A stretch of DNA of 64,000 nt. Origin: Salipiger abyssi (GTDB lineage Bacteria; Pseudomonadota; Alphaproteobacteria; Rhodobacterales; Rhodobacteraceae). The position numbers and the translations under genes were made by a program. The stretch lies in NCBI RefSeq assembly GCF_017311415.1, contig NZ_JAEKIS010000010.1:62001-126000 (forward strand). The letters run 5' to 3'. This document shows positions 7,376 through 13,854 of this stretch, piece by piece. Under the pieces are notes generated by a model. It searched no databases, was not told the DNA's origin, and worked only from the letters and a program-made list of their open reading frames with translations. The number at the start of each line of letters is the position of its first letter. Positions within the stretch are counted from its first letter, which is position 1.

Positions 7376-8212
7376 TCAGGCGGCGCGGAGCCCCAGCATG
7401 CGCCGCGCCTGTTCCGGCGTCGCGATGGGGCGGCCATGGCGTTTCGCCACCTCCGCCGCCCGCGTCACCAGCGCCGCGTTGGAGGGGGCAAGCGTGTCGC
7501 GGTCGAGCCGGATATTGTCCTCGAGCCCGGTGCGCAGATGGCCACCGGCCGCCGCCGCCCATTCGTTGACCTCGATCTGATGCCGCCCGATCCCCGCCGC
7601 GCACCAGGGCGCCTCGGCGCCGAATAGCAGCTTCACCGTATCGACATAGATGTCGAACACCCGCTTGTCGGCGGGCATGGCGTTCTTCACGCCCATGACG
7701 AACTGCACATAGGGCGTGCCTTCGAGTGCGCCCCGGTCGGCCATCGCCTTGGCCTGATAGATATGCGAGAGGTCGAACGCCTCGATCTCGGGCTTCACCC
7801 CGTAGGTTTTCATCTCGGAGGCCAGCCACTCGACCAGATCCGGCGGGTTCTCGTAGACCCGCGTCGGAAAGTTGTTCGAGCCCACCGAGAGCGAGGCCAT
7901 GTCGGGGGCGAGCGGCAGCATGCCGCCGCGCGCCTGCCCGGCGCCGGAGCGCCCGCCGGTGGAAAGCTGCACGATCATGCCGGGGCATGCCGCCTCGATC
8001 CCCGCCTTCAGCTGCGCGAACCGCTCGGGATCCGAGGTCGGCTTGCCGTCGTCGTCGCGCACATGGCAATGGGCGATGGTCGCCCCCGCCTCAAAGGCCT
8101 CGCGGGTCGATGCGACCTGCTCCTCGACGGTGATCGGCACGGCGGGGTTGTCCGCCTTGGTGGGCAGCGATCCGGTAATCGCCACGCAGATGATACAGGG
8201 GGTTTCGCTCAT
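7376..8212 (-). CDS. Beta-keto acid cleavage enzyme (BKACE, DUF849)
   Basis: A 278-residue TIM-barrel enzyme of the DUF849/BKACE family. The family condenses a beta-keto acid with acetyl-CoA and releases acetoacetate plus a new CoA ester. The metal-binding set is visible: His48 and His50 in AHCHVR and Glu231 in HLRTGLED. They sit at almost the same positions as the zinc ligands His46, His48 and Glu230 of 3-keto-5-aminohexanoate cleavage enzyme. Its ATG overlaps the upstream hydrolase stop (ATGA). The neighbours are ring-cleavage enzymes, so beta-ketoadipate is the attractive substrate. That assignment is inference; beta-keto amino acids or dehydrocarnitine are alternatives. Confidence 0.85.
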   Translation of the reverse strand: MSETPCIICVAITGSLPTKADNPAVPITVEEQVASTREAFEAGATIAHCHVRDDDGKPTSDPERFAQLKAGIEAACPGMIVQLSTGGRSGAGQARGGMLPLAPDMASLSVGSNNFPTRVYENPPDLVEWLASEMKTYGVKPEIEAFDLSHIYQAKAMADRGALEGTPYVQFVMGVKNAMPADKRVFDIYVDTVKLLFGAEAPWCAAGIGRHQIEVNEWAAAAGGHLRTGLEDNIRLDRDTLAPSNAALVTRAAEVAKRHGRPIATPEQARRMLGLRAA

Positions 8213-9045
8213 GACATCCTCGATAGCGCATCCAGGAAATACGGGCGGAAACCCTGCGGATGCTCGCTCATCGGAAAATGACCCAGCTCGTCCATGATCG
8301 CAAGCGTCGCACCGGGGATCGCATCCGCCGTGCGTTTTGCATCCTCGGGCGTGCAGGTGAGATCGTAGGCGCCGGCGATGATATGCACGGGCGTTTTGCC
8401 GGTGTCGATCTGCCCCAGACGCTGGATCAGGCTGCCATCCCTAGTGTAAAAACTCAGATCGCCCCGAAACACGCCCGGCCCCGACTGCATGAACATCCAC
8501 AGCGTATTCCAGCGCTCCGCCTCCGGTGCGTAGGGCGAGATATTGGCCGAAACCAGCGCCGCCCCCATCTCGCCGCCATGGGCGTCGGGACGGTGGAACC
8601 AGTCGATATCGTACCAGGCGGGCTGGAAGTCGCTGGCCTCGATGGCGATGAAGCCGGCAAAGCGCTCGGGATGCAGCGCCGCGAGCTGAAGCGCGATGCG
8701 CCCGCCCATGGAACAGCCCGCCAGCACCGGTTTCTCCAGCCCCAGCCCGTCCATCACCGCCAGGATGGTCTCGATATAGGCGTCTGTGGTGAGCAGGTAT
8801 TCCTCGGTCTGGAAGCCCTCGGGCGGCAGCGATTTGCTGTGCCAGGGCATGTCGAAGGCGATCAGGCGGTTGGCGCCGGTCACCTCGGCATCGTTCATCA
8901 GATGCCGCCACTGGCCGGTATGGGCGCCCGCCGTGTGCAGGCAGAGCACTGGGCGGCCCTGCCCGGCCTCTTCGAAATAGATGCGTTGCGCGCGGCCTGC
9001 GACCTCGACGGTCAGATAGCGGCCAATGATCGGTTCGATGCTCAT
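8209..9045 (-). CDS. Alpha/beta-fold hydrolase, possible enol-lactone hydrolase
   Basis: A 278-residue alpha/beta hydrolase. The nucleophile elbow is GCSMGG with Ser112. Asp228 (AGAYDLTC) and His256 (ELGHFPMSEHP) complete the likely triad, and the oxyanion segment is LHTAGAHTGQW. The ATG at 9043-9045 was chosen because the upstream gene stops at 9042-9044, giving an ATGA coupling. The frame runs further upstream but only through the overlapping neighbour. In the ring-cleavage context it could hydrolyse beta-ketoadipate enol-lactone or muconolactone, as CatD/PcaD do. The sequence alone does not prove this. Confidence 0.78.
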   Translation of the reverse strand: MSIEPIIGRYLTVEVAGRAQRIYFEEAGQGRPVLCLHTAGAHTGQWRHLMNDAEVTGANRLIAFDMPWHSKSLPPEGFQTEEYLLTTDAYIETILAVMDGLGLEKPVLAGCSMGGRIALQLAALHPERFAGFIAIEASDFQPAWYDIDWFHRPDAHGGEMGAALVSANISPYAPEAERWNTLWMFMQSGPGVFRGDLSFYTRDGSLIQRLGQIDTGKTPVHIIAGAYDLTCTPEDAKRTADAIPGATLAIMDELGHFPMSEHPQGFRPYFLDALSRMS

Positions 9046-9413
9046 GCCCGGCCCTCCCGCGGCAATGCCAGAAGCTCTTTGAAGAAGCGCAGGTTCTTCA
9101 CCAGAAACAGGATGTCGCCGAGAATCTCGGCGCGGCCGATCTTCACCAGCCCGAAGATGTCGTGAAAGCCCGGCTCGGGGATCGGCTGCCAGAATTTCTC
9201 CAGCGCCTCGCGGTCGGTGACCAGCGCCACGCGGTAGGGGATCTTTTTCGACGGGCCCGGCACGATCTCGGCCAGCGCGCCCTTGTCGAAGACCAGATAG
9301 TGCTCGATATCGCCGACCTTGAGCAGCACCGTCTCCGACACCAGCCGCCCCAGGCGCAGCAGATGCGGGCGCGCCGCCAGCCCGGCGGGCATCGCTTGGA
9401 TCTCTTGCAGCAT
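9042..9413 (-). CDS. Small conserved-looking protein of unknown function, first gene of the BKACE operon
   Basis: A 123-residue soluble protein that I do not recognise with certainty. The ATG at 9411-9413 has GGAGG six bases upstream. The sequence has no signal peptide or membrane helix. Its C-terminal half (FWQPIPEPGFHDIFGLVKIG ... LGDILFLVKNLRFFKELLAL) resembles small SCP2-like fold proteins, but this is a weak impression. It does not resemble muconolactone isomerase CatC. The stop overlaps the next start, so it is translated with the hydrolase and BKACE. It may bind an aromatic or lactone intermediate. Confidence 0.7.
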   Translation of the reverse strand: MLQEIQAMPAGLAARPHLLRLGRLVSETVLLKVGDIEHYLVFDKGALAEIVPGPSKKIPYRVALVTDREALEKFWQPIPEPGFHDIFGLVKIGRAEILGDILFLVKNLRFFKELLALPREGRA

Positions 9414-9481
9414 TTCGCCTCCCATGCCTTGCGTCGCGCGGACCATGCGCGCGCCGCTTGGTCACAGCAATGACGGCACGA

Positions 9482-9531
9482 GTATCAGCCGATACCCAAG
9501 CGGGCGAATACAGCAGAGTATTGCGCAATAC
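9482..9531. promoter_or_regulatory. LysR-type operator array between the BKACE operon and the dioxygenase gene
   Basis: Three overlapping or adjacent dyads are visible. GTATC-AGCC-GATAC is at 9482-9495, ATAC-N6-GTAT at 9508-9521, and the perfect palindrome GTATTGCGCAATAC at 9518-9531. The ATAC/GTAT/ATAC half-sites start at 9508, 9518 and 9528, exactly 10 bp apart, on one face of the helix. BenM/CatM-type LysR regulators bind ATAC-N7-GTAT, so this is close to their site. It lies in the 198-bp divergent region and could control both directions. Confidence 0.65.
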
Positions 9532-9611
9532 CTTCGCGGATATTGGATTGCGTCCCGCAAAGCGCGACTGTCTGCCATGATTTGAATATGTCATCTCGGG
9601 AGGAGATCATC

Positions 9612-10484
9612 ATGGCAATCACCCTGGAAAACGTCACCGACGTGGTCACCGCGTCGCTGGGCCGGAACGGCGAGATCGACGCCCGTCAGCGCGAGATCAT
9701 GACCGCGCTGATCAAGCACCTGCACGCCTTCTGCAAGGACGTGAAGCTCCAGCACCACGAATTCCTCGCCGCCTGTGACTACCTCGCCCGCGCCGGGCAG
9801 ATCTGCGACGACAAGCGTCAGGAATTCATCCTGCTGGGCGATATCCTCGGCGTCGAGGTGCTGGTCGACATGCTGTCGAACCCGGTCAGCGGCAGCGAGA
9901 GCGAATCCACCGTGCTGGGGCCGTTCTACCGCGAGAACCCGCCGGTTCTGCCCAAGGGCGCCTCGACCGTGCTGAAGAATTTCGACGATCAGGAAACCGC
10001 CTATTTCGAAGGCTATGTGCGCGATGCCGATGGCACGCCGCTGGCCGGCGTGATCATGGATGTCTGGGAAGACGCGCCCAACGGGCTCTACGAAAATCAC
10101 GATCCCGATCAGCCCGACTACAACCTGCGTGGCCGGTTCGAGACCGACGAGAACGGCCATTACGCCTTCCGCGCGGTGCGCCCGGTGCCCTATCCAATCC
10201 CCGACAACGAAACCGCCGGCGAGCTGCTGCGCTATATGGGGCACCACCCCAACCGCCCCGGTCACATGCATTTCATTCTGTCCAAGGACGGCTACCGCCC
10301 GCTCATCAGCCAGGTCTATGACAGTTCCTCCGCCTGGCTCGACGACGACAGCGTCTTTGCGGTGAAGGACAGCCTCGTGGCCGAGTTCAAAAAGGCCGGT
10401 CCCGAGCTCGACACCGAGCTGCACGTTCAATTCGATTTCGTCCTCAAGCGCGTCGCCGCCGAGGACCGGATCGCTGCCGAATAA
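9612..10484 (+). CDS. Intradiol ring-cleavage dioxygenase (catechol / hydroxyquinol 1,2-dioxygenase type)
   Basis: A 290-residue non-haem Fe(III) enzyme. It opens catechol or hydroxyquinol between the hydroxyl groups, giving cis,cis-muconate or maleylacetate. The four iron ligands are visible: Tyr160 (NGLYEN), Tyr194 (PVPYPIP), His218 and His220 (RPGHMHF). An N-terminal helical dimerisation domain precedes them. GGGAGGAGA just upstream selects this ATG over an in-frame ATG 24 bp earlier. The YPIP ... MGHHPNRPGHMHF block looks like the hydroxyquinol subgroup. The nearby muconate cycloisomerase and CatR-like regulator favour catechol, so substrate remains open. Confidence 0.92.
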   Translation: MAITLENVTDVVTASLGRNGEIDARQREIMTALIKHLHAFCKDVKLQHHEFLAACDYLARAGQICDDKRQEFILLGDILGVEVLVDMLSNPVSGSESESTVLGPFYRENPPVLPKGASTVLKNFDDQETAYFEGYVRDADGTPLAGVIMDVWEDAPNGLYENHDPDQPDYNLRGRFETDENGHYAFRAVRPVPYPIPDNETAGELLRYMGHHPNRPGHMHFILSKDGYRPLISQVYDSSSAWLDDDSVFAVKDSLVAEFKKAGPELDTELHVQFDFVLKRVAAEDRIAAE

Positions 10485-10510
10485 GCGTATCCCTGCGACA
10501 TTCGGCGCGA

Positions 10511-10540
10511 AACCCCCGCTTCGGCGGGGGTTTTTCTTTT
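10511..10540 (+). terminator. Rho-independent terminator after the dioxygenase gene
   Basis: CCCCCGC-TTCG-GCGGGGG forms a 7-bp GC stem with a stable TTCG tetraloop, followed by TTTTTCTTTT. It lies 26 bp after the dioxygenase stop and isolates that gene from the downstream LysR regulator. Confidence 0.93.
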
Positions 10541-10579
10541 GCCGCCCGCGCGCGAGAATGGCGGCGGGGAGCGCCGATC

Positions 10580-11470
10580 ATGAATCTCAAGCAACTGACC
10601 TATTTCATCGCAGTGGCCGAGGAGCTGCATTTCGGCCGCGCCGCCGAGCGGCTGGGCATGGCGCAACCGCCGCTGTCGCGCCAGATCAAGCAGATCGAGG
10701 ACGAGCTGGGCGCGGTGCTCTTCAACCGGGGCCGCCGCGCGGTAAGCCTGACCCAGGCAGGCGAGCGTCTGCTGGAACGCGGACGGGGGCTGGTGCGCGA
10801 TTTCGAGGATATGCAGCTCGAGGTGCGCCGGCTCGGCGAAGGCGCCGAGGGCCGGCTGCGCATCGGTTTCGTGGGCTCTTCGACCTTCGGCATCCTGCCC
10901 AATATCGTCAAATCCTTCCGCGCCAACCGGCCCGATGTGAACCTGACACTGACGCCGATGAACAATGCCCAGCTTCAGCGCCGCCTCGTCAGCCGCGAGA
11001 TCGACGTGGCCTTCGCCCGCCCGGCGCTGAAGGACGCCGAGTTCCGCACGATCCACCTGGGCGTCGAGCCGCTGGTCGCCGCGATGCCCGACACGATGGA
11101 GACCGAAAAGCAGGGCCGCGTCACCATCGACGAGCTGCGCGGACAGAGCTTCATCCTCTATCCGGAATTCCCCCGCCCCTCCTATGCCGATCTGGTGCTG
11201 GAGAGCTGCGCCGCGCACGGGCTGGAGGTGGGCAAGACGCTCTTCACCATGGATCTTCTGACCGCCCTCAGCCTGGTGGCCATCGGCGAGGGCATCTGCA
11301 TCGTGCCCGCCTCGGTCGCCTCCGGCGCCCGCAACGGCGTGCGCTTCCGCGAGATCGCCCCGCCGATCGGCGAGACATCCCTGTCGCTCAACTACCGGCT
11401 CGACGAACAGGGCCCGCATGTGAAGGCCTTCGTGCAGATCGCACAAAGCGTGGCGCGAAAGGCGTTTTGA
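10580..11470 (+). CDS. LysR-family regulator, CatR/BenM-like
   Basis: A 296-residue LysR transcription factor. The N-terminal winged helix-turn-helix (FGRAAERLGMAQPPLSRQIK, residues 18-37) is typical of the CatR/CatM/BenM/ClcR subgroup of aromatic catabolism regulators. A periplasmic-binding-like inducer domain follows from about residue 90. It is cut off from the dioxygenase gene by a terminator and should have its own promoter in the short gap. It probably binds the ATAC/GTAT array at 9482-9531, with muconate or a related acid as inducer. That is inference from neighbours and motif. Confidence 0.88.
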   Translation: MNLKQLTYFIAVAEELHFGRAAERLGMAQPPLSRQIKQIEDELGAVLFNRGRRAVSLTQAGERLLERGRGLVRDFEDMQLEVRRLGEGAEGRLRIGFVGSSTFGILPNIVKSFRANRPDVNLTLTPMNNAQLQRRLVSREIDVAFARPALKDAEFRTIHLGVEPLVAAMPDTMETEKQGRVTIDELRGQSFILYPEFPRPSYADLVLESCAAHGLEVGKTLFTMDLLTALSLVAIGEGICIVPASVASGARNGVRFREIAPPIGETSLSLNYRLDEQGPHVKAFVQIAQSVARKAF

Positions 11471-11833
11471 GGGCGGATCCGGATGGGTGCCGCATCCGAC
11501 ACCAACATATGATGGAAATTCCCCGGGTAGGGACTCGAGAGCAGTTTTCACACTGCTTTTCTGTAACGCGGCGCCTTCCTGCCGTTCACCGCAAGTGCTA
11601 GGTTTTCGCCAGGCACGCAACCGCGGCGCCAGGCAGGTCGGACTTTGGCCCCTCGGCCTCCACCAGCGGTAGCGACGCGCGGGATCCGCTTTGGCGGAAG
11701 TGACCTGCGCGTAGACATCTGCGCGAGCGGCTCGATGACGATCAAAGACCATATCCAGACCAGCCAGGAAGACATGGAAGAAATCGAAATCGGGCACGAC
11801 CTGGATCGCAGACAGTATCGGCGTGGCGCTGGT
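11471..11833. other. Gene-poor stretch between the LysR gene and the orphan gene
   Basis: About 360 bp without a convincing gene. A weak hairpin CGGATG-N7-CATCCG (11480-11498) follows the LysR stop and may end its transcript. GGCGCC-containing boxes recur near 11570 and 11622. In-frame ATGs of the downstream gene occur at 11735 and 11774 (the latter with AGGA four bases before), so part of this stretch may be coding. A minus-strand reading frame crosses 11650-11860 but shows no recognisable domain. Confidence 0.4.
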
Positions 11834-12565
11834 GTGAACGCGGGCCTCATTCGGTTTCTCTACATATCTGTTACTGCGCTCTTGTGCGCGGTCACTCCAT
11901 CGATCTCTGCTGGAGAGCGCGAAACCTTGGTCTCTTCTGTCATCGATAGCTTTAGGTTCGGCCAGTTCTATCCGGAGTGCAGAAATTTGTTTTCTGAAAA
12001 GACCTGCCAGGCTCTCGTGTTTGTTAATATTGCCCCAATGAAGAGTTACGGCGAACAGGAAGGTCGGACGACGGACGACGACGCCTTTATTCCACGACGC
12101 ATTCGATCCTACCTTGACAACCGACCAATTGAAGCCCTTGGGGCATTGTCTAGTTGCTCGGAGCATGAGTTCTTGGAATGGGTCGCGGAGGTCGTGCGGA
12201 GGGCTGGGAAAAGTGCCGAAGGCACAATCCATTCACTTCCAAATGAATTCATCGGATGTGTGTCTCTGCTGCATAAATCAGAGCACTATTTTATTGTTAC
12301 TTCTGAAGGTATTGTTGGTAAAGCTGAGGTCACCAAAGGGAAGTCCAATAGCGTGCTCTCGATGACCTTTTTCTTTCGGATGAAGAATTTCGAGATAAGC
12401 TTGACTGGATTTCCGATTGAAGTCTGGCAAGAAACCCCATCCAGTGTCTTGGATTTTTTGAATAATTCCGTTAGGGATATGTTCCCAGATAGCTCAATCA
12501 AAATAGATGTTGGATCTCCATCAGAACTTCGCTTCGAAAGCGAAGATCAACAAAATACTGATTGA
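11834..12565 (+). CDS. Orphan exported protein of unknown function, atypical base composition
   Basis: From GTG 11834 the product has 243 residues and starts with a Sec-type signal (NAGLIRFLYISVTALLCAV, then TPSISA before GERE). In-frame ATG starts at 11774 or 11735 are possible but would bury the signal. No family is recognised. The mature part has about five cysteines and no repeats. The DNA is clearly A+T-richer than its surroundings: positions 12301-12420 contain 51 G+C of 120 by hand count, and codons such as TTT, AAT and TTA are frequent. It lies between the catR-like and catB-like genes and looks like recently acquired DNA. Confidence 0.6.
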   Translation: MNAGLIRFLYISVTALLCAVTPSISAGERETLVSSVIDSFRFGQFYPECRNLFSEKTCQALVFVNIAPMKSYGEQEGRTTDDDAFIPRRIRSYLDNRPIEALGALSSCSEHEFLEWVAEVVRRAGKSAEGTIHSLPNEFIGCVSLLHKSEHYFIVTSEGIVGKAEVTKGKSNSVLSMTFFFRMKNFEISLTGFPIEVWQETPSSVLDFLNNSVRDMFPDSSIKIDVGSPSELRFESEDQQNTD

Positions 12566-12696
12566 CACCAAAACTATGGGAGCGGAGCCTCCTCGAGGTT
12601 GCGGCCTCTGTCAACGTAGGATCCAAGCAGCCATGGCCAGCCAGCCTGACCCGCGGCGTTTCACCTGAGCGCTCGCACCCGGCCAACGTAGAGGCC

Positions 12697-13854
12697 TCAC
12701 GCCCCGCTCGGCACCGCCACCCCAGCCACCTGCGTGCTGCGGTCGCGGCGGAACTGGGCGATGCGGTCTTCGTCCAGCTCCGCACCCAGCCCCGGACCCT
12801 CGGGCAGATGCACCGAGAAATCCTCGTAGCGGATGGGCTCGGCCAGGATGTCGTGCTTCATCAGCAGCGGACCGAAGAGCTCCGTACCCCAGTCGAGCTC
12901 CGGGAAGGTCGAAAAGAGCTGCAAGGCCGCCGCCGTGCCCACGCCGGCCTCCAGCATCGTACCCGCGTAAAGCCCGATGCCTGCCGCCTGTGCGATGGAG
13001 ACCACCTCGGAGCCGCGTTTCAGCCCGCCGGACTGCGCGATCTTCACCGCGAAGACATCCGCCGAGCGCCCGGCGGCATAGGCCATCGCATCCTCGGGCC
13101 CCTGAAGCGCCTCGTCGGCCATCACCGCGATCTCGTACCCGTCGGTCAGCGCTTTCAGCTGCTCGCGATAGCGCGCGCCGATGGGCTGCTCGACCAGATC
13201 GACGCCGATCTCCTGCAAGCCCTTCAGCCCCCAGCGCGCCTCGCTCAGCGACCAGGCCTGATTGACGTCCACCCGGATCGACGAGCGGTCGCCCACCGCG
13301 TCGCAGATCGCCGCGACATGGGCGAGGTCGTCCCTCACCGGGCGCTTGCCGATCTTCAGCTTGAAGATGTTGTGCCGGCGGTTTTCCAGCATCGCCTGCG
13401 CCTCTTCGATATCGGTCTCGGATTTGCCCGAGGCCAGCGTCCAGGCCACCGGCATCGCCCGGCGCACCGGCCCGCCGAAGAGCTGCGCCACCGAGACACC
13501 CAGCCGCTTGGCCAGCCCGTCCCAGAGCGCCGTCTCGACCGCACAGCGGGCAATCGGGTTGCCCTTGACCGCGCGCTGCATCGCGTCGATGGCGGCGTTG
13601 ATCTGATCGCCGTCGAGCCCTTCGAGCACCGGCGCGATATAGGTGTCGATGGCCAGCTTGATGCTTTCCGGGCTCTCGGCACCATAGCTCATGCCGCCGA
13701 TGGAGGTGCCCTCGCCCAGCCCCACCGACCCGTCGGAGAAGCGGACCCGCACCAGAACGATGGATTGCACCATCATCGTGGTCATCGACAGCACATGCCC
13801 GCGAATGGTCGGGAGGTCGATGAGCGTGGTCTCGATCCGGTCGATCTTGGTCAT
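12697..13854 (-). CDS. catB: Muconate cycloisomerase-like enolase-superfamily enzyme
   Basis: A 385-residue enolase-superfamily enzyme, probably converting cis,cis-muconate to muconolactone. The catalytic set matches the muconate lactonising subgroup: Lys165 and Lys167 (KLKIGK), metal ligands Asp196, Glu222 and Asp247, general acid/base Lys271 (KIAQSGG), and Glu302 (MLEAGVGTAA). AAGG lies a few bases before the chosen ATG (13852-13854). An in-frame ATG 33 bp upstream lacks a ribosome site. Its 3' end faces the orphan gene and the LysR gene. A chloromuconate or other lactonising or racemising activity is possible. Confidence 0.87.
   Translation of the reverse strand: MTKIDRIETTLIDLPTIRGHVLSMTTMMVQSIVLVRVRFSDGSVGLGEGTSIGGMSYGAESPESIKLAIDTYIAPVLEGLDGDQINAAIDAMQRAVKGNPIARCAVETALWDGLAKRLGVSVAQLFGGPVRRAMPVAWTLASGKSETDIEEAQAMLENRRHNIFKLKIGKRPVRDDLAHVAAICDAVGDRSSIRVDVNQAWSLSEARWGLKGLQEIGVDLVEQPIGARYREQLKALTDGYEIAVMADEALQGPEDAMAYAAGRSADVFAVKIAQSGGLKRGSEVVSIAQAAGIGLYAGTMLEAGVGTAAALQLFSTFPELDWGTELFGPLLMKHDILAEPIRYEDFSVHLPEGPGLGAELDEDRIAQFRRDRSTQVAGVAVPSGA

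Follow-up and report, generated by a model that had tools for sequence, protein, structure and literature searches.

How might Salipiger abyssi convert muconolactone to beta-ketoadipate when its genome holds no recognizable CatC? The question is raised by a gene cluster at positions 7376–13854 of the window, by which we mean the whole stretch of 64,000 nucleotides analysed here (assembly GCF_017311415.1, contig NZ_JAEKIS010000010.1, positions 62,001 to 126,000). An earlier note had read five genes lying together in this cluster as a possible ortho-cleavage pathway without CatC; these genes encode an intradiol dioxygenase, a muconate cycloisomerase (MLE), an alpha/beta hydrolase (ABH), a LysR-type regulator and a BKACE (DUF849) enzyme. 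All five were located by family and profile matches, and the cluster appears to be of the catechol type, with BKACE as its likely last enzyme. A sixth gene had gone unlisted: a small open reading frame directly upstream of ABH, whose product we call P134 (Table 1). The absence of CatC, the remark in the earlier note that led furthest, holds for the whole genome as well as the window, with no PF02426 match at E ≤ 0.001 among 19 candidates scored. P134, a gene without a name, is the new point here; the BKACE part was already known.

We propose the following pathway. The dioxygenase would open catechol to cis,cis-muconate, which MLE would close to muconolactone. P134 and ABH together would then convert muconolactone to beta-ketoadipate in place of CatC and CatD, most likely with P134 taking the CatC step, a shift of the double bond, and ABH the CatD/PcaD step, the opening of the enol-lactone. 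Finally, BKACE would cleave beta-ketoadipate with acetyl-CoA to yield succinyl-CoA and acetoacetate, and the acetoacetate would be finished by a CoA-transferase and a thiolase encoded elsewhere in the genome. Taken as a whole, this pathway seems to us modestly probable. Each of its reactions is inferred from sequence, above all the choice of P134 or ABH as the isomerizing partner: that the two together convert muconolactone to beta-ketoadipate is more probable than not, and for P134 itself being the isomerase we see about even chances.

As in the usual catechol ortho pathway, genes for a dioxygenase, MLE, a lactonase-like hydrolase and a LysR-type regulator are clustered, and the genome carries PcaIJF. 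Unlike that pathway, the genome lacks CatC, and the unrelated small protein P134 occupies the place expected for it; the hydrolase scores far under the PcaD cut-off, and BKACE ends the operon. ABH was the only one of the genome's hydrolases scored against TIGR02427, and its 69.3 bits compare with a cut-off of 255.85, so by score it is not a PcaD ortholog.

The evidence that ties P134 to ABH is their constant association. From the matches to P134 we picked 65 loci: 27 from genomes (the window included), 16 from plasmids and 22 with distant relatives. These sets draw on 33 of the 34 genomes of the host's family with a match (fetched, or the window itself; G175 was left out), 19 of 25 plasmid records (L107, which duplicates the plasmid of L193, was not counted) and 14 of the 19 other genomes of the class with a distant relative. 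P134 lies directly upstream of ABH, on the same strand, in 65/65 loci (27/27, 16/16 and 22/22), an order established by script in 64 and from matches and annotation in the remaining one, L295. An ATGA is found at the P134 stop codon in 37 of 40 loci. Such constancy would also be expected if P134 (small, perhaps an SCP2-like binding subunit) and ABH formed one enzyme, with the complex or ABH itself both isomerizing and hydrolysing and P134 alone inactive. The pairing, which extends to the 22 distant pairs lacking MLE, the ATGA overlaps and the weak SCP2 signals described below are all consistent with this explanation. Set against it are the usual division of labour between a separate CatC and CatD, and the fact that overlapping gene pairs are also common for consecutive steps. 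We consider a single two-subunit enzyme unlikely, though worth serious attention.

Among the 27 genome loci, relatives of the dioxygenase and of the LysR-type regulator (≥45% identity) were each present in 25, MLE in 24, BKACE in 19 at ≥50% identity (18 at ≥65%) and HpaB in 4. The 16 plasmid loci contained dioxygenase and LysR genes in 11 each, MLE in 8, CoA-transferase in 5, BKACE in 4 and HpaB in 3. Because each locus is cut off where its contig or fetched stretch ends, and many plasmid stretches stop before MLE would be reached, the counts for MLE, BKACE and CoA-transferase are lower bounds. P134 accompanies two types of MLE, which share about 70% and about 40% identity with that of the window, and is found with ben genes or HpaB-type genes in several gene orders, such as dioxygenase-MLE-P134-ABH-LysR in Rhizobium jaguaris and Shinella and P134-ABH-MLE in Thioclava. 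Two side observations concern P134-ABH pairs near ring-cleavage genes. Plasmid pP88_c of Phaeobacter inhibens P88 holds two tandem pairs (L295:4304-5516 and L295:9001-10235), and an intradiol dioxygenase gene adjoins each of them. One distant pair (L242:4180-5484) has two protocatechuate-3,4-dioxygenase-type genes at a distance of ~2 kb.

Co-occurrence across genomes points the same way. In a survey of 394 genomes of the host's family, P134 was found in 27 at E ≤ 1e-40 (plus 7 weaker matches), MLE in 30 (with up to four candidates scored per genome) and CatC in 19, 18 of them over the cut-off. P134 was present in 25 of the 30 genomes with MLE, compared to only 4 of 30 for CatC. Uncorrected for kinship or gene transfer, Fisher tests of association with MLE gave P values of 2e-32 for P134 and 0.047 for CatC. 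Of the 25 genomes with both P134 and MLE, 24 have the two within 12.5 kb on a single contig, and one has them on separate contigs. In two genomes without P134 (G023, G171), MLE adjoins CatC. G130 contains two MLEs, with CatC next to one of them and P134 2.3 kb from the other, and G239 has two MLEs together with CatC and P134, its CatC lying far from both MLEs.

Several observations weigh against the proposed role of P134. First, at the identity thresholds applied, the stretches fetched for the 22 distant P134-ABH pairs contain neither MLE nor dioxygenase nor BKACE, and hence the pair is not specific for muconolactone across the whole family. These pairs, roughly 22–56% identical among themselves or to the queries used, have as neighbours genes for acyl-CoA dehydrogenase, the acetate-CoA ligase family, aldehyde dehydrogenase, protocatechuate dioxygenase and family III CoA-transferase, a pattern that speaks for lactone isomerases differing in specificity, or else for a hydrolase that has a partner subunit. 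Two plasmid loci, from Xanthobacter dioxanivorans (L106:3907-5147) and Ancylobacter polymorphus (L254:9001-9941), likewise have P134-ABH with no MLE in the stretch; they share the same P134 core, identical in sequence, near monooxygenase-type genes (annotated as toluene/alkene-type in L254). P134 may thus be no isomerase but a partner of the hydrolase. Second, G005 and G113 have P134 without MLE, and the co-occurrence of the two could in part reflect the spread of one mobile cluster. Third, 15 of the 19 family genomes with a PF02426 match have no MLE, making PF02426 a noisy marker for CatC. Fourth, among 255 genomes in a class-wide profile, only the window's own has MLE over the cut-off, so that testing P134 against CatC outside the family is uninformative, even though distant P134 relatives occur in 19 other genomes. 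Fifth, P134 has no Pfam match to CatC, and hhalign of P134 to four CatC proteins gave E 0.41. P134 therefore shows no relation to CatC, and homology offers no argument for a CatC role; the idea that it is a distant CatC was rejected on these grounds.

Finally, three genomes (G254, G361, G367) have MLE but neither P134 nor CatC, which means that at least one further solution to the isomerase step exists. By extension, CatC activity in S. abyssi could come from an unrecognized CatC relative or an unrelated isomerase elsewhere, with P134-ABH doing something else, such as acting on an alternative lactone. In two of these three clusters, which we read, a glutathione-transferase-like gene directly follows MLE (L205:8313-8948, L207:8497-9132), and its product could offer a third way of carrying out this step. 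However, the glutathione-transferase-like protein was matched nowhere in the 27 genome and 16 plasmid P134 loci, and P134 tracks MLE, in the same cluster, in 25 of 30 genomes. We regard an isomerase elsewhere as very unlikely. The L207 cluster also carries a true PcaD over the cut-off.

What kind of protein is P134? Its start at 9413, giving 123 residues, agrees with annotated relatives; a longer start at 9446 (134 residues) is possible. Searches of Pfam, NCBIfam and the PDB with default limits found no match, and none of its relatives turned up in viral contigs. Comparison with SCP2 sterol-carrier-like proteins (PF02036, 3cnu) showed comparable lengths and a weak, colinear match between profiles, with a signal below any accepted limit. 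The P134 of the window did not reach the PF02036 gathering cut-off, and only 1 of 38 family members matched SCP2 in Pfam (E 0.0092), with DUF7190 (0.016) and others matching equally weakly. A profile of the 38 members found 3cnu in the PDB at E 0.14. Aligned by hhalign to 19 SCP2 relatives, P134 gave E 0.0027 with a probability of 11% over 92 columns, compared to E 0.38 and 0.37 for reversed controls. A single-sequence AlphaFold2 model had a mean pLDDT of 44.7, too low for use. We treat the resemblance to SCP2 as a lead only. Tentatively, and with some doubt, we suggest that P134 founds a new family of butenolide-type lactone isomerases, unrelated to CatC and perhaps SCP2-like, that are obligate partners of one ABH clade. 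In Rhodobacterales and part of the Hyphomicrobiales, the pair would have taken over from both CatC and CatD in the degradation of benzoate and phenol, with the distant pairs acting on other lactones in CoA-linked pathways. If P134 does stand in for CatC, a nameless protein family would gain a function, automated pathway annotation could be corrected for many marine bacteria, and the non-orthologous replacement of a textbook pathway enzyme would become testable.

A published strain provides a parallel. Sulfitobacter D7 was able to grow with benzoate as its only source of carbon, and all its catechol-branch genes were reported found except CatC (PMC9873259). In the benzoate cluster of its plasmid p5SUD7, the hypothetical protein B5M07_RS19070 corresponds to P134 (63% identity) and the hydrolase to ABH (85%), the two being positioned between the dioxygenase gene and the cluster end. 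This cluster shares MLE, dioxygenase, P134, ABH and LysR with that of the window, and CatC is missing from both. It differs in having benABCD and pcaI, with no BKACE in the fetched stretch. If P134 fills the CatC gap, the pathway hole of this benzoate-degrading roseobacter would be explained. In the open-licence literature we found no paper describing a replacement of CatC; the available part of the Sagittula MA-2 paper is silent on this branch.

Growth of this strain on benzoate also bears on the substrate of the dioxygenase. The enzyme of the window falls under the cut-offs of TIGR02439, TIGR02438 and TIGR02465, all catechol or chlorocatechol models, and its best PDB matches (8r2x, 3n9t, 8r2v, 8r2w, 1tmx) place it nearest to hydroxyquinol dioxygenases. 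It could therefore make maleylacetate in a hydroxyquinol pathway, leaving MLE, P134 and ABH to serve other substrates. Yet relatives of the dioxygenase (≥45%) occur with benABCD-type genes in 12 of the 27 genome loci and 5 of the 16 plasmid loci, and Sulfitobacter D7 uses benzoate with just such a cluster. Moreover, maleylacetate reductase was found in 0/65 loci with a single query, an iron-alcohol-dehydrogenase-type gene product from L207 that we read as this enzyme. These data make a hydroxyquinol pathway highly improbable, and a catechol 1,2-dioxygenase role remains the one we assign.

At the end of the pathway, BKACE passes the curated cut-off of NCBIfam NF053568 (3-oxoadipate:acetyl-CoA acetyltransferase) and scores under the cut-offs of the models for 3-keto-5-aminohexanoate cleavage enzyme; its closest solved relatives are 3fa5, 3chv and 3no5. 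It likely converts beta-ketoadipate and acetyl-CoA to succinyl-CoA and acetoacetate, as the earlier note had suggested; besides the NF053568 match, the ATGA overlap with the hydrolase gene and the neighbourhoods of related genes favour this assignment. Related loci numbered 111 in named genomes; among the best 80 of these, PcaH was matched in 39 and both PcaH and PcaG in 37. PcaG ends ≤1.5 kb upstream of BKACE in 35 of the 80, the majority of loci with a recognized context, and several of the remainder sit on stretches that end close to the gene. Ring-cleavage genes thus adjoin BKACE in the window as they do for other members of the family, with the difference that here the gene overlaps a hydrolase gene of the catechol branch instead of the protocatechuate branch. 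A benzoate/catechol cluster of Rhodobacter sp. CZR27 has BKACE overlapping a gene annotated as pcaD.

The idea of a BKACE that cleaves beta-ketoadipate is already known, both in print and in NCBIfam. The available text of PMC8963497 proposes BKACEs of this type as a substitute for pcaIJ, citing Bastard et al. 2014, and also cites that study for its G4 BKACE, the 3-oxoadipate:acetyl-CoA acetyltransferase family. A search of the open-licence literature for DUF849 with 3-oxoadipate found no paper. Many plasmid records label relatives of BKACE as 3-keto-5-aminohexanoate cleavage protein, and the main use of our result here is to correct this common misannotation.

The reasons given in the earlier note for a BKACE fared less well. 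PcaIJ and PcaF are indeed absent from the window; whole-genome searches placed no CoA-transferase (PF01144), pcaF-type thiolase or CatC inside it. PcaIJ and PcaF are not absent from the genome, where pcaI, pcaJ and pcaF lie in a row on contig C8, together with pcaHG. The argument from loss of PcaIJF therefore falls, and we reject the view that BKACE is required for want of them. Nor would the BKACE route spare a CoA transfer, because acetoacetate still requires activation. A CoA-transferase gene (≥50% identity) is found in 9 of the 27 genome loci with P134, each time with BKACE.

Given the genes on C8, BKACE could be an accessory that acts on another beta-keto acid, with PcaIJ and PcaF cleaving beta-ketoadipate from both branches. 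Consistent with this, 8 of the 27 genome loci with P134 lack BKACE at ≥50% identity in the fetched stretch. The available text of PMC12442348 reports that in Roseovarius nubinhibens loss of pcaI stopped growth on 4-hydroxybenzoate and loss of pcaF did not; the first phenotype fits an accessory BKACE, though a CoA-transferase is also needed after BKACE, and both phenotypes would be predicted if BKACE made acetoacetate that was then activated. Since NF053568 is an equivalog model, and since BKACE overlaps ABH by an ATGA in the window and follows pcaG closely in 35 of the 80 related loci, an accessory role strikes us as quite unlikely. Cleavage of beta-ketoadipate is the function we retain for BKACE. 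The genome holds one other BKACE gene, of a different subgroup and 32% identical to that of the window.

The layout of the region is given in Table 1. P134 overlaps ABH, and ABH overlaps BKACE, by an ATGA (4 bp), all on the minus strand, indicating that the three genes form one operon.

Table 1. Genes and intergenic features of the cluster, in window coordinates
Feature	Position	Strand	Evidence
BKACE	7376..8212	-	PF05853 326.8 bits; NF053568 485.1 bits (cut-off 350)
Alpha/beta hydrolase (ABH), candidate enol-lactonase (CatD role)	8209..9045	-	PF00561; TIGR02427 PcaD 69.3 bits
P134, 123-aa protein, candidate CatC role or ABH partner subunit	9042..9413	-	No family match
Divergent intergenic region, probable control region	9414..9611	.	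198 bp, between P134-ABH-BKACE operon and dioxygenase gene
Intradiol dioxygenase, likely catechol 1,2-dioxygenase role	9612..10484	+	PF00775, PF04444
LysR-type regulator, BenM/CatM/AlsR-like	10580..11470	+	PF00126, PF03466; under NCBIfam cut-offs
Muconate cycloisomerase (MLE, CatB role)	12697..13851	-	TIGR02534 503.4 bits (cut-off 334.95)

The best PDB matches of MLE are 3ct2 and 1muc. An ATAC-N7-GTAT operator is absent from the divergent region, and the count of this site over the whole window is at chance level. Between the LysR gene and MLE lies an AT-rich patch (GC 0.47 at 12000–12499, compared to 0.61–0.73 in the surroundings), where an open reading frame for 306 residues without a Pfam match was found at 11645–12565. 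The patch is probably an insertion.

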